Below, one piece after another: positions 43,859 to 47,465 of a stretch of 64,000 nt of DNA. This stretch comes from Sphingomonas cremea (GTDB taxonomy: Bacteria > Pseudomonadota > Alphaproteobacteria > Sphingomonadales > Sphingomonadaceae). Within the stretch, counting starts at the first letter, position 1. Each line of letters opens with the position of its first letter. Both the position numbers and the translations under genes were made by a program. A model generated the notes under the pieces. That model saw only the letters and a list, made by a program, of their open reading frames with translations. It was not told the DNA's origin and searched no databases. Location: positions 558,501 to 622,500 of the forward strand of contig NZ_JAKFGM010000002.1 of the NCBI RefSeq assembly GCF_021502585.1, read 5' to 3'.

Positions 43859-44583
43859 TTACCCGCCAGCTCTTTCTCAATCCGCTGCCACAACTCCGCG
43901 ACCGCCTCGACCGCCGGGGAGGGGCGCGGGAAAAGCTCGCCAATGGGAGCACGGGCTTCGCTCATCTTTTCATAAGCGCTGGCCATTGGGATCGCGGGCC
44001 AGCCGGGCTGGCTTTCCAGCGCAGTGCGATGCAGGAGACGGCGGCGATCGACCATCGAAAAGACCGGGGCCAATATCACCTTGGGCCCCTTTTTTTGCCC
44101 GACATGTTCCTTGATTTCGTCCAGCGCCCGGCGCGACAGGATTGCCGGGATCAACGGCACGACCGCCAGGTCGGCCGCGCGCAGGATCTGGTCCGACGTG
44201 TCGGTCAGGCCAGGCGGACAGTCGATGATGATCCGATCATAATCGCGGCTGAGGTTCGAAGCGATCTTCGCCAGCCGCTTGCGCTTGCCAAGGTCGTGGA
44301 ACGCATAGTCGAGCGTACGAAGCGACTCATCGGCCGGCAGCACGTCGAGGCGGTCGATGCCGGTGTGACGGATCAGCTGCGAAGGGTCGGCATCGCGCGT
44401 GATGCTTTGCCGGGCCTTGGCTCCGCCCGGCTCCTGGCCGAGAATATAGCTTGCCGCGCCCTGCGCATCGAGGTCCCACAGCAGGGTGCGGCGGGACGAT
44501 AGCGCGGCGCTGGCCCAGGCAAGGTTGACCGCCAAGGTCGTTTTCCCGACGCCACCCTTTGCGCTGTAGACGGCGATGATCAT
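43855..44583 (-). CDS. Orphan ParA-family ATPase
   Basis: A 242-residue ATPase with the deviant Walker [19 protein letters not shown] and Walker [16 protein letters not shown]. It differs from MipZ and has no ParB or other partner adjacent. It overlaps ruvA (ATGA) and the GFA gene (ATGA), so it is embedded in a coupled ruvA-parA-GFA unit. ParA-like proteins position chromosomes, plasmids or protein complexes; which cargo this one serves cannot be told. Confidence 0.88.
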
Positions 44584-45176
44584 TTGGCGGCCTTCCTCAG
44601 GGCAAGGCGGACGAGCGCGTCGAGGCTCGCCTCTACTCCTAGCTCATCGGTAGCCGCGGCAACAGCCGCGCTGGCCTCGGCAGGCTTGAACCCGAGGTTG
44701 GCGAGGGCCGATAGGGCGTCCGCCGCCGCGCCGCCACGCTGGGGCGGGGAGCCAAGCGATCCGGCCAGCGCCGGGCTGCCGAGCTTGCCGGCCAGTTCGT
44801 TGACGATTCGCTGGGCGAGCTTGGGGCCGACGCCATTGGCCCGCGACACCATCGCCTTGTCGCCGCGTGACACCGCTGCGGCGAGCTCGGCGGGATCGAG
44901 CACCGACAGGATGGCGAGTGCGACCCGGCCACCGACCCCCTGGACGCTGGTCAACTGGCGAAATGCCTCGCGCTCGCCGGCGGAGCCGAATCCGAACAGG
45001 GTCCAGCCGTCCTCGCGCACCTGAAGCTCGGTCAGGATAACGACATCGCCGCCGACCGGACCCAGGGCATCCAGCGTCCGCGCGCTGGCCTGCACCTGGT
45101 AACCCACCCCCTGCACATCGACGATCGCGCCGTCGGCGCCGGCTTCGACGAGCTTTCCGGCGAGGCGCGCAATCAC
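44580..45176 (-). CDS. ruvA: Holliday junction branch migration protein RuvA
   Basis: A 198-residue protein with [20 protein letters not shown] at the start, helix-hairpin-helix motifs ([35 protein letters not shown]) and a C-terminal RuvB-binding domain ([19 protein letters not shown]). It binds the four-way junction and loads RuvB. The start is GTG 45176; a longer frame runs into the family A repeat, giving LRCARNDGS, and is not genuine. The repeat begins only 11 bases upstream and no clear ribosome site remains. Confidence 0.95.
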
Positions 45177-45187
45177 GCGGAGCGAGC

Positions 45188-45257
45188 CATCATTGCGAGC
45201 GCAGCGAAGCAATCCATTGCGCTGGATTGCCGCGTCGCGGCGCTCCTCGCAATGACG
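45188..45257. repeat. Palindromic intergenic repeat, family A copy 2
   Basis: Imperfect palindrome (CATCATTGCGAG at the left, CTCGCAATGACG at the right) closely similar to 43388-43454. It is directly upstream of ruvA, between ruvA and the divergent alpha/beta hydrolase. The two copies bracket the GFA-ParA-RuvA unit. Confidence 0.8.
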
Positions 45258-45357: not shown

Positions 45358-46233
45358 ATGCCGACGATCACCACGCGCGACGGAACCGATATTTTCTACA
45401 AGGACTGGGGCCCGCGCGACGCGCAGCCGATAGTCTTTCATCATGGCTGGCCGCTCAGTTCCGACGACTGGGACAACCAGATGATGTTCTTCCTCGACAA
45501 GGGCTACCGGGTGATCGCCCATGATCGCCGGGGTCATGGCCGGTCGAGCCAAACGGACGGCGGCAATGAAATGGACACCTATGCGGCCGACGTGAAGGAA
45601 CTGGTTACCGCTCTCGACCTCAAGAATGCCTTCCATGTGGGCCATTCGACGGGCGGCGGGGAAGTCGCCCATTATGTCGCTCGGGCCGATCCGGGACGGG
45701 TGGCCAAGGCCGTGCTGCTCGATGCGGTGCCGCCAGTAATGGTCAAGAAGGATTCAAACCCGGGCGGGACGCCGATCGAGGTGTTCGACGGATTCCGCAA
45801 GGCATTGGCCGATAACCGTTCCCAGCTTTACCTCGATATCCCGACCGGCCCCTTTTACGGCTTCAACCGGCCTGGTGCGAAGGTATCAGAAGGCCTGATC
45901 CGCAACTGGTGGCGGCAGGGCATGATGGGCAGCGCCAAGGCCGGCTACGAGTGCATCAAGGCCTTTTCCGAAACCGACTTCACCGAGGATTTGAAGACGA
46001 TCGAGGTTCCAGTGCTGGTGATCCACAGCGAGGACGACCAGATCGTGCCTTATGCGGACTCGGCGCCGCTCGCGGTCAAGTTGCTGAAGAATGGCAGGCT
46101 CAAGACCTACAAGGACCTGCCGCACGGCTGCGCTTCGACCCATCCGGACCTGATCAACGCAGACTTGCTGGCCTTCTTCGAAGGGCAGGAAGTTGGCGAG
46201 GCAGCGAAGCAGGTGGAGGCAGCGTTGGCCTGA
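45358..46233 (+). CDS. Alpha/beta hydrolase, non-haem chloroperoxidase/arylesterase-like
   Basis: A 291-residue hydrolase with FHHGWPLSSDDWD, the nucleophile elbow VGHSTGGGEV, the acid in VIHSEDDQIVPY and His in LPHGC. It matches the bacterial cofactor-free haloperoxidase/esterase group; the true role is usually esterase or perhydrolase. A strong AAGGAGG lies seven bases upstream of the ATG. It is a plus-strand insertion between ruvC and ruvA and ends three bases before the ruvC stop. Confidence 0.9.
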   Translation: MPTITTRDGTDIFYKDWGPRDAQPIVFHHGWPLSSDDWDNQMMFFLDKGYRVIAHDRRGHGRSSQTDGGNEMDTYAADVKELVTALDLKNAFHVGHSTGGGEVAHYVARADPGRVAKAVLLDAVPPVMVKKDSNPGGTPIEVFDGFRKALADNRSQLYLDIPTGPFYGFNRPGAKVSEGLIRNWWRQGMMGSAKAGYECIKAFSETDFTEDLKTIEVPVLVIHSEDDQIVPYADSAPLAVKLLKNGRLKTYKDLPHGCASTHPDLINADLLAFFEGQEVGEAAKQVEAALA

Positions 46234-46236
46234 GGC

Positions 46237-46725
46237 TCAGCCAAGCCGCCGGGCGCTGGCGAGGTGGTGCGCATGCGTGATTGCCACCGCCAGCGCATCG
46301 GCGGCGTCTGGGCCTGAAATTTCAACACCGGGAAGCAGGTGCTGGATCATGGCGTGGACCTGCACCTTTTCCGCCGAGCCGGTTCCGACGACCGCCTTCT
46401 TGACCAGCCGCGGCGCATATTCGCCGACTTCGATGCCGGCGCGGGCGGCAATCATCAGCGCGACGCCGCGTGCCTGCCCGAGCTTCAGCGTGGACTGGGG
46501 GTTTTTGTTGACGAACACCTCCTCGACCGCCGCGGCCTGAGGCGAGTGATCGGCGATGATCGCCTCCAGCTGGGAGGCGAGGTGAGACAGGCGCTTGGGC
46601 AGGCTTTCGGACGCGTCGGTCTTCAGCTGCCCATTGGCGACATGCGAAAGGCGATTGCCTTCGGCGCGGACCAGTCCCCAGCCGGTCGTCCCCAGGCCGG
46701 GGTCGAGACCGAGGATGAGCGTCAG
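46237..46725 (-). CDS. ruvC: Holliday junction endonuclease RuvC, CTG start
   Basis: Full-length RuvC of 162 residues that cuts Holliday junctions. It has the catalytic Asp in [14 protein letters not shown] near the N-terminus, Glu in [13 protein letters not shown] and the C-terminal Asp pair in [16 protein letters not shown]. In this frame no ATG, GTG or TTG occurs between the upstream stop and GTG 46518, which would remove the first 69 residues and the catalytic acids. The only sensible start is CTG at 46725-46723, overlapping the yebC TGA (CTGA) and preceded by GGAG eight bases upstream. Translation is thus probably coupled to yebC. Confidence 0.88.
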
Positions 46726-47465
46726 CCGAGCTTCTCCAGTTCCTCGTCCGGAACATTGTAATTGCCCGAAACAGTCTGGACGTCGTCATCATCCTCCAGC
46801 GCGTCGAGCAGCTTCATTAAGGTCGCGGCATCGTCGCCAGTGACAGTCACCTCATTCTGCGGGCGCCAGGCCAGCTTTGCCGATTCGGGCTCGCCGAGGG
46901 CGGCTTCGAGCGCCCGGGCGACGGCATGAAGCGCGTCCTGCGCGGTCCAGATTTCGTGACCCGCCTCGTCGCTTTCGACATCGTCGGCGCCGGCCTCGAT
47001 CGCGGCCTCGAGAACGGTTTCTTCGTTGCCCGCGGCGGATGAGTATTCGATCAGGCCCATCCGGTCGAAACCGTGGCTGACGCTGCCGCTGGCGCCCAGA
47101 TTGCCGCCATTCTTGGAGAAGATGGTGCGGACGTTGGTCGCGGTGCGATTGCGGTTGTCGGTGAGCGCCTCGACAATGATCGAAACGCCGCCTGGGCCGA
47201 AGCCTTCGTAGCGGATCTCCTCGTAATTCTCGGCATCGCTGGCCGAGGCCTTGTCGATCGACCGCTGGATATTGTCCTTGGGCATCGACTGGGCCTTGGC
47301 GGCGAGAACGGCGGCGCGCAGCCGCGCGTTCATGTCCGGATCGGGCAGGCCCATCTTTGCCGCGACGGTGATTTCGCGAGAGAGTTTGGAGAACATCGCC
47401 GAGCGCTTTTTGTCCTGCGCGCCCTTGCGATGCATGATGTTCTTGAATTTGGAATGGCCGGCCAT
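46722..47465 (-). CDS. YebC/PmpR-family regulator or translation factor
   Basis: A 247-residue protein beginning [20 protein letters not shown], with the middle [20 protein letters not shown] and C-terminal [19 protein letters not shown], all diagnostic. YebC proteins were described as DNA-binding regulators and more recently as ribosome-associated factors for proline-rich sequences. It precedes ruvC as usual; its TGA stop overlaps the ruvC CTG start. Confidence 0.95.

Follow-up and report, generated by a model that had tools for sequence, protein, structure and literature searches.

Where does translation of ruvC begin when its reading frame offers no usable ATG, GTG or TTG? The question is raised by positions 46237..46725 (minus strand) of the window, the whole 64,000-nucleotide stretch of Sphingomonas cremea DNA analysed here. 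Read from a CTG codon at 46723..46725, this frame encodes a Holliday junction resolvase of 162 residues, identified by family models and structure alignment.

The ruvC frame and its product

The ruvC frame is open for 25 codons upstream of the glycine of the GLDPG motif, and the whole interval from the upstream in-frame stop to GLDPG contains no ATG, GTG or TTG. The first canonical codon of the frame is a GTG, at the position (46518) given in an earlier note on this DNA. The open reading frame that starts there (46237..46518, minus strand) encodes 93 residues and begins at residue 70 of the full product. The same note had pointed out that such a start forfeits 69 residues together with the catalytic Asp of GLDPG; alignment with E. 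coli RuvC indicates that E68 is lost as well as D8, two of the four catalytic acids. Because both are missing, the 93-residue product is, judged from the alignment, not a plausible RuvC. It is the only fragment returned in this frame by an ORF lister limited to ATG, GTG and TTG, and to that extent the prediction that gene finders would truncate or miss ruvC holds.

The identity of the full-length product is well supported by profile searches. It scores 154.3 bits against TIGR00228 (cut-off 100.65; residues 4–156) and 156.8 bits against PF02075 (4.6e-46), while its score against NF000711, 157.3 bits, lies slightly under the cut-off of 163. The acids D8, E68, D140 and D143 are all present in columns aligned to 1hjr; we take their E. 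coli equivalents to be D7, E66, D138 and D141. In the solved RuvC chain 6lw3, the methionine of MTLILG is aligned to residue 1 of the CTG-started product. A search of the S. cremea genome returned this one match and no second ruvC.

The gene upstream is yebC (YebC/PmpR family; 46722..47465, minus strand), which ends in GGC TGA (...GAACTGGAGAAGCTCGGCTGA). The ruvC CTG shares its TG with that stop on the minus strand, giving the four-base overlap CTGA. A GGAG of Shine-Dalgarno type lies at 46734..46737 (minus strand), within the final yebC codons, and is separated from the CTG by the 8-nt spacer AAGCTCGG. Both the overlap and the GGAG had been described in the earlier note and are confirmed by the sequence. 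Downstream, ruvA occupies 44580..45176 (minus strand), with a probable GTG start at 45176. An alpha/beta hydrolase gene at window 45358-46233 (plus strand) lies between ruvC and ruvA in the opposite direction, its end 3 nt from the end of ruvC. A palindromic element, TCATTGCGAG...CTCGCAATGA, is found at window 45190-45255, just upstream of ruvA, and is presumably a dispersed repeat.

The start codon of ruvC in related genomes

The genus set comprises 71 genomes by GTDB grouping, its named neighbours including Sphingomonas edaphi, S. caseinilyticus, S. alba and S. segetis; the CTG junction is present in S. segetis (L086). We detected ruvC in 69 of them and read all 69 junctions; one match (L035, in genome G034) has a single in-frame TAA inside the aligned range. 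The ruvC start is CTG in 24 loci, ATG in 17, GTG in 15 and TTG in 13. Nearly all of these codons occupy one place, four or five codons before GLDPG (CTG 24, ATG 17, GTG 14, TTG 13), the remaining locus, L172, having a GTG at -8 instead. Every one of the 24 loci that lack a canonical start between -3 and -10 carries CTG at -4/-5. The comparison of the yebC-ruvC junction among relatives, which the earlier note had proposed beforehand, thus yields CTG or ATG/GTG/TTG at the same place, and the proposed start of ruvC at CTG is strongly supported by these 69 loci.

No canonical codon occurs anywhere in the open frame of 15 of the 24 congeneric CTG loci. The other nine have one 19 to 53 codons before GLDPG, and 15 of the 37 family CTG loci described below also have one elsewhere in their open frames; taken together, nearly all of these stray codons lie 16 to 74 codons before GLDPG, a GTG at -19 being the commonest. 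Two loci, L171 (one of the nine) and L175, have a canonical codon two before GLDPG. A long N-terminal extension of RuvC starting from the distant codons is unlikely. As far as the sequences can tell, the ruvC CTG is a conserved start-codon place that interchanges with ATG, GTG and TTG and has no usable canonical start beside it, and in most CTG loci nothing else that is plausible would serve as the start of ruvC.

Beyond the genus set we read 55 more unique named loci, in which the codon was ATG in 38, TTG in 6, CTG in 5, GTG in 5 and a different one in the last. The exception, L114 (Sphingobium fluviale), shows no canonical start and no CTG at -4/-5; its yebC ends in GGATAA and its ruvC frame reads ATA AGT CTG ATC CTC, so that the start may be the ATA or the later CTG. 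A pattern scan of 397 genomes of the family Sphingomonadaceae found 73 places, of which 70 were fetched and 39 hold ruvC. We dropped two of these, L219 because a GTG directly precedes its CTG and L209 because of a TTG at -10, and kept 37. CTG starts of ruvC are therefore present in at least 37 further family genomes, from 19 other genera (20 in all), a lower bound since the scan pattern is confined to a single position. A second, stricter pattern for the junction, which covers -4 only and would miss the -5 case of the window itself, was found in 0 of 289 genomes of the class, four of which are family members.

Overlap with yebC and the Shine-Dalgarno sequence

The four-base CTGA overlap is present in 22 of the 24 congeneric CTG loci and in 34 of the 37 from the family. 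Among the 25 congeneric loci with an NTGA overlap, N is C in 22, G in two and T in one, and never A. CTG is thus the start in 22 of the 25 overlaps, vs 2 of the 44 junctions of other kinds (p 9e-13 by Fisher's test, which takes no account of relatedness). A quick tree of 119 loci, in which 35 of the 116 inner branches are starred, requires at least 18 changes between CTG and non-CTG. The association was kept in a tree-based test with 11 supported independent pairs: averaged over 200 pairings, CTG went with overlap in 9.4 pairs, against it in 0.0 and made no difference in 1.6 (sign test, median p 0.004). The tree and the pair test therefore suggest that CTG has been gained or lost many times and that it is linked to overlap.

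A GGAG precedes the CTG in all 24 congeneric CTG loci; the spacing is 8 nt in 22 of them and 6 nt in the other two. In the two GTG overlaps (L024, L158) no GGAG stands at about 8 nt, and the TTG overlap has one at 5. This pattern fits a weak codon that would be compensated by a good GGAG site and by ribosomes terminating yebC on the spot, and termination-reinitiation at the yebC-ruvC CTGA is plausible. Two congeneric CTG starts, in L067 and L077, do not overlap, standing 28 and 104 nt after yebC, and two further CTG-started genes discussed below, for an adenosyltransferase and gluQ, are not NTGA overlaps. Coupling is therefore not a requirement; on this comparative evidence, overlap appears to help a CTG start without being necessary to it.

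A further question is whether CUG is selected for at the coupled junction, where it would keep RuvC low, rather than merely tolerated. In its favor, C precedes TGA in 22 of 25 congeneric overlaps vs 56% expected from the GGN and GCN codons of yebC (p 0.0005 by simulation, without regard to relatedness), matches to the family junction pattern have C in 34 of 38, T in two and A in two (the upstream gene of these four being unchecked), and the GTG overlaps, as noted, lack a GGAG at about 8 nt. However, C also ends 20 of 28 non-overlapping TGA-ended yebC genes, a proportion that does not differ significantly from 22 of 25 (p 0.18), and the other CTG-started genes have no such junction. Within an overlap, the yebC stop dictates the TG of NTG. 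C is the habitual last base of yebC, and therefore at ruvC alone it could be drift from codon habit. Selection for CUG is a possibility that we regard as less likely than mere tolerance of the codon; on the present sequences, selection for C at the ruvC junction is not established.

Other genes with a probable CTG start in the same genome

To the window we added ∼373 kb of the same genome, making up about a sixth of it and 369 open reading frames under looser coding-score limits (a stricter pass kept 170). There are 57 neighbor pairs in NTGA phase, 12 of them with CTG; a canonical start lies within 18 codons in 11 of these 12, and none does for ruvC. Eight open reading frames have at least 10 coding-like codons ahead of their first canonical start. 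Two, ruvC and a cobalamin adenosyltransferase gene, were taken as real. The other six were set aside by eye: one is cut by the window edge, some have a canonical start at the expected place and some are probably not genes.

The cobalamin adenosyltransferase gene (TIGR00636; C2:103960-104532 of the genome, or L248:8960-9532) has no ATG, GTG or TTG near its N-terminus, and its start region reads CTG GTA AAG CTC AAT AAA (LVKLNKIYTRTGDD). We read 68 loci, consisting of 30 from the 69 congeneric genomes with a match, 9 more and 29 family loci (one of them congeneric). The start codon is NTG in all 68: ATG in 25, CTG in 19, TTG in 19 and GTG in 5. Since a G follows this codon, its TG cannot be part of a TGA stop that overlaps it. 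In 15 congeneric genomes the adenosyltransferase gene has CTG at its start; ruvC also has CTG in 5 of these and does not in 10, which indicates that the start codons of the two genes switch separately.

A third gene, at C2:102888 of the genome (the upstream part of L263), is gluQ, which from its motif we take to be glutamyl-Q tRNA(Asp) synthetase. It reads GGAG TGA GTC CTG AAG GTC ACA CGT, with the GGAG 6 nt before the CTG start and an in-frame TGA two codons before it; no ATG, GTG or TTG lies between that TGA and the CTG. CTG is found in 6 of the 28 congeneric loci read, and L278 and L283 have TTG and ATG, respectively, in the same TGAGTC context. Among family loci, CTG was found in 0 of 24 (24 of 29 found), which have ATG in 5, GTG in one, a canonical codon within 12 codons in 16 and neither in two; CTG at gluQ is therefore local to near relatives of the window. 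This gene came from a comparison of orthologs with the genome G068 (229 pairs, 203 placed), a noisy procedure that assigned CTG to one or both members of 22 pairs, the adenosyltransferase not among them. Only gluQ was convincing; most of the remaining cases look like leucine codons within the frame or have a canonical start nearby.

In total, three genes carry a CTG start (ruvC, adenosyltransferase and gluQ) in the 369 open reading frames. What the earlier note had treated as an oddity of one gene appears instead to be a habit common to many genera of Sphingomonadaceae.

Alternative explanations for the missing canonical start

The strongest competitor to initiation at the CTG, and still a very improbable one, is initiation at a near-cognate ATC, ATT or ACG just after it, two to four codons before GLDPG. 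Of the two codons that follow the CTG, the first is indeed near-cognate in 18 and the second in 16 of the 24 congeneric CTG loci. However, these are the codons of the conserved first-strand Ile/Val, some CTG loci have AGA, GTC or CTC in their stead, and starts there would sit 11–14 nt from the GGAG. Across 13 frame positions scanned, from eight before the CTG to four after it, the CTG is the sole position that is near-cognate in 24 of 24 loci.

Slightly less probable again is that ruvC has no start of its own and that its product is joined to YebC through a -1 frameshift or readthrough of a stop. In the overlap loci the frame of ruvC does extend open beyond the CTG on its upstream side, as would be needed, and the 25 open codons before GLDPG in the window are an example. 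Several observations speak against a fusion: an X XXY YYZ heptamer is absent from the last 20 yebC codons in 22 of 22 overlapping congeneric CTG loci; the CTG lies past the yebC stop altogether in L067 and L077; gluQ has its in-frame TGA two codons before the CTG; and relatives have plain ATG, GTG or TTG starts at the same place in ruvC.

Two explanations can be dismissed almost entirely. A base error or assembly fault that turned ATG, GTG or TTG into CTG, which the earlier note had named as what might undo its reading, is contradicted by the recurrence of CTG at this site: 23 other genomes of the genus have it, several of them assembled into one to five contigs, as do 37 from the family. Decay of ruvC, although it would account for the lack of a canonical start, is equally hard to credit for a full-length, single-copy gene with up to 87% identity to its congeners and all four catalytic acids kept, the more so as CTG ruvC genes occur in 20 genera.

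Initiator tRNA

The anticodon stem of the initiator tRNA reads TCAGG CTCATAA CCTGA, that is, with A29-U41 instead of G29-C41, in every match of a pattern search, in 37 of the 71 congeneric genomes; in G026 one of the two copies has a further stem change. No initiator tRNA was seen among the 41 tRNA matches of the S. cremea genome itself, perhaps because an rRNA operon is unassembled. Some other Alphaproteobacteria have A29-U41 too, so the pair cannot alone explain the pattern in the family. In E. coli, discrimination against CUG becomes weaker when the neighboring anticodon-stem pair of the initiator, 30-40, is swapped (PMC11497404). A29-U41 is a lead for the tolerance of CUG, not an explanation.

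Proposed initiation at CUG

We consider it very probable that ruvC is translated from the CTG at 46725, guided by the GGAG and most probably coupled to yebC, and that CUG acts as a weak fourth start codon in Sphingomonadaceae. Ribosomes would reach the codon through the GGAG 8 nt upstream and would most probably be delivered at the yebC stop, by termination-reinitiation on CTGA. Initiation would presumably involve the ordinary fMet initiator tRNA, with Met as the first residue. A weak CUG should result in low RuvC output, and this would be fitting for a resolvase of which little is needed. At least three genes, ruvC, the cobalamin adenosyltransferase gene and gluQ, would use this codon in interchange with ATG, GTG and TTG at a given site.

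A broader proposal, on which we are evenly divided, is that CUG serves all of Sphingomonadaceae as a regular fourth initiation codon, employed by ∼1% of genes (3 of 369 open reading frames) in free interchange with UUG, GUG and AUG, that many genes are consequently truncated or missing in annotation, and that the tolerance is perhaps partly due to the initiator tRNA. Gene finders that accept only ATG, GTG and TTG cut ruvC to 93 residues here and may damage other genes in many genomes of the family. A bacterial family with frequent CUG starts that trade places with the three usual codons at a given site would also offer a natural system for the study of start-codon fidelity, with respect to initiator tRNA, IF3, Shine-Dalgarno strength and coupling.

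Comparison with known systems

Compared with RuvC resolvases of solved structure (1hjr, 6lw3, 7w8d), the protein belongs to the same family by sequence and has the catalytic acids too; only its start codon is unusual. The closest parallel for that codon is rep of the FIB replicon of F-like plasmids, whose CTG start was confirmed by mutation, a change of CTG to CTC abolishing function (PMC11983097). The two share a CTG with a good ribosome-binding site; low output is thought sufficient for rep and may be so for RuvC, and records of rep have been mis-annotated with a downstream GTG. However, rep is one plasmid gene with mutational and N-terminal evidence, whereas here at least three chromosomal genes of a bacterial family are involved, known from sequence. 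The same paper quotes Hecht et al. for CUG initiation in E. coli at about tenfold below UUG, and cites a count of 20 CTG starts among nearly 85,000 annotated genes.

The yebC-ruvC junction resembles the coupled ATGA/TGATG gene pairs of Huber et al. (PMC6728339) in its four-base stop/start overlap and in a Shine-Dalgarno sequence inside the upstream gene, but its start is CTG, a codon absent from the main text of that paper. In trimming carotenoid genes of Sphingomonadales, CTG was allowed as a last-choice start (PMC5989583). In the open-access literature, as far as it was accessible to us, we found no report of CTG starts of ruvC or of such starts as a habit of Sphingomonadaceae.

Interchange at one site among relatives is also what Belinky et al. 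(PMC5622118) described as start-codon switching among AUG, GUG and UUG. In their data, switches to CUG numbered 2 of 61,358 ancestral AUG, 1 of 5,080 GUG and 1 of 2,468 UUG codons. Against this rarity, CTG in 24 of 69 congeneric loci at ruvC is unusual, as is its presence in three genes within roughly a sixth of a single genome, although annotation habits may hide more CTG starts elsewhere. Judged by its recurrence at the same sites, the CUG start in Sphingomonadaceae seems to be a working start signal that has been overlooked.
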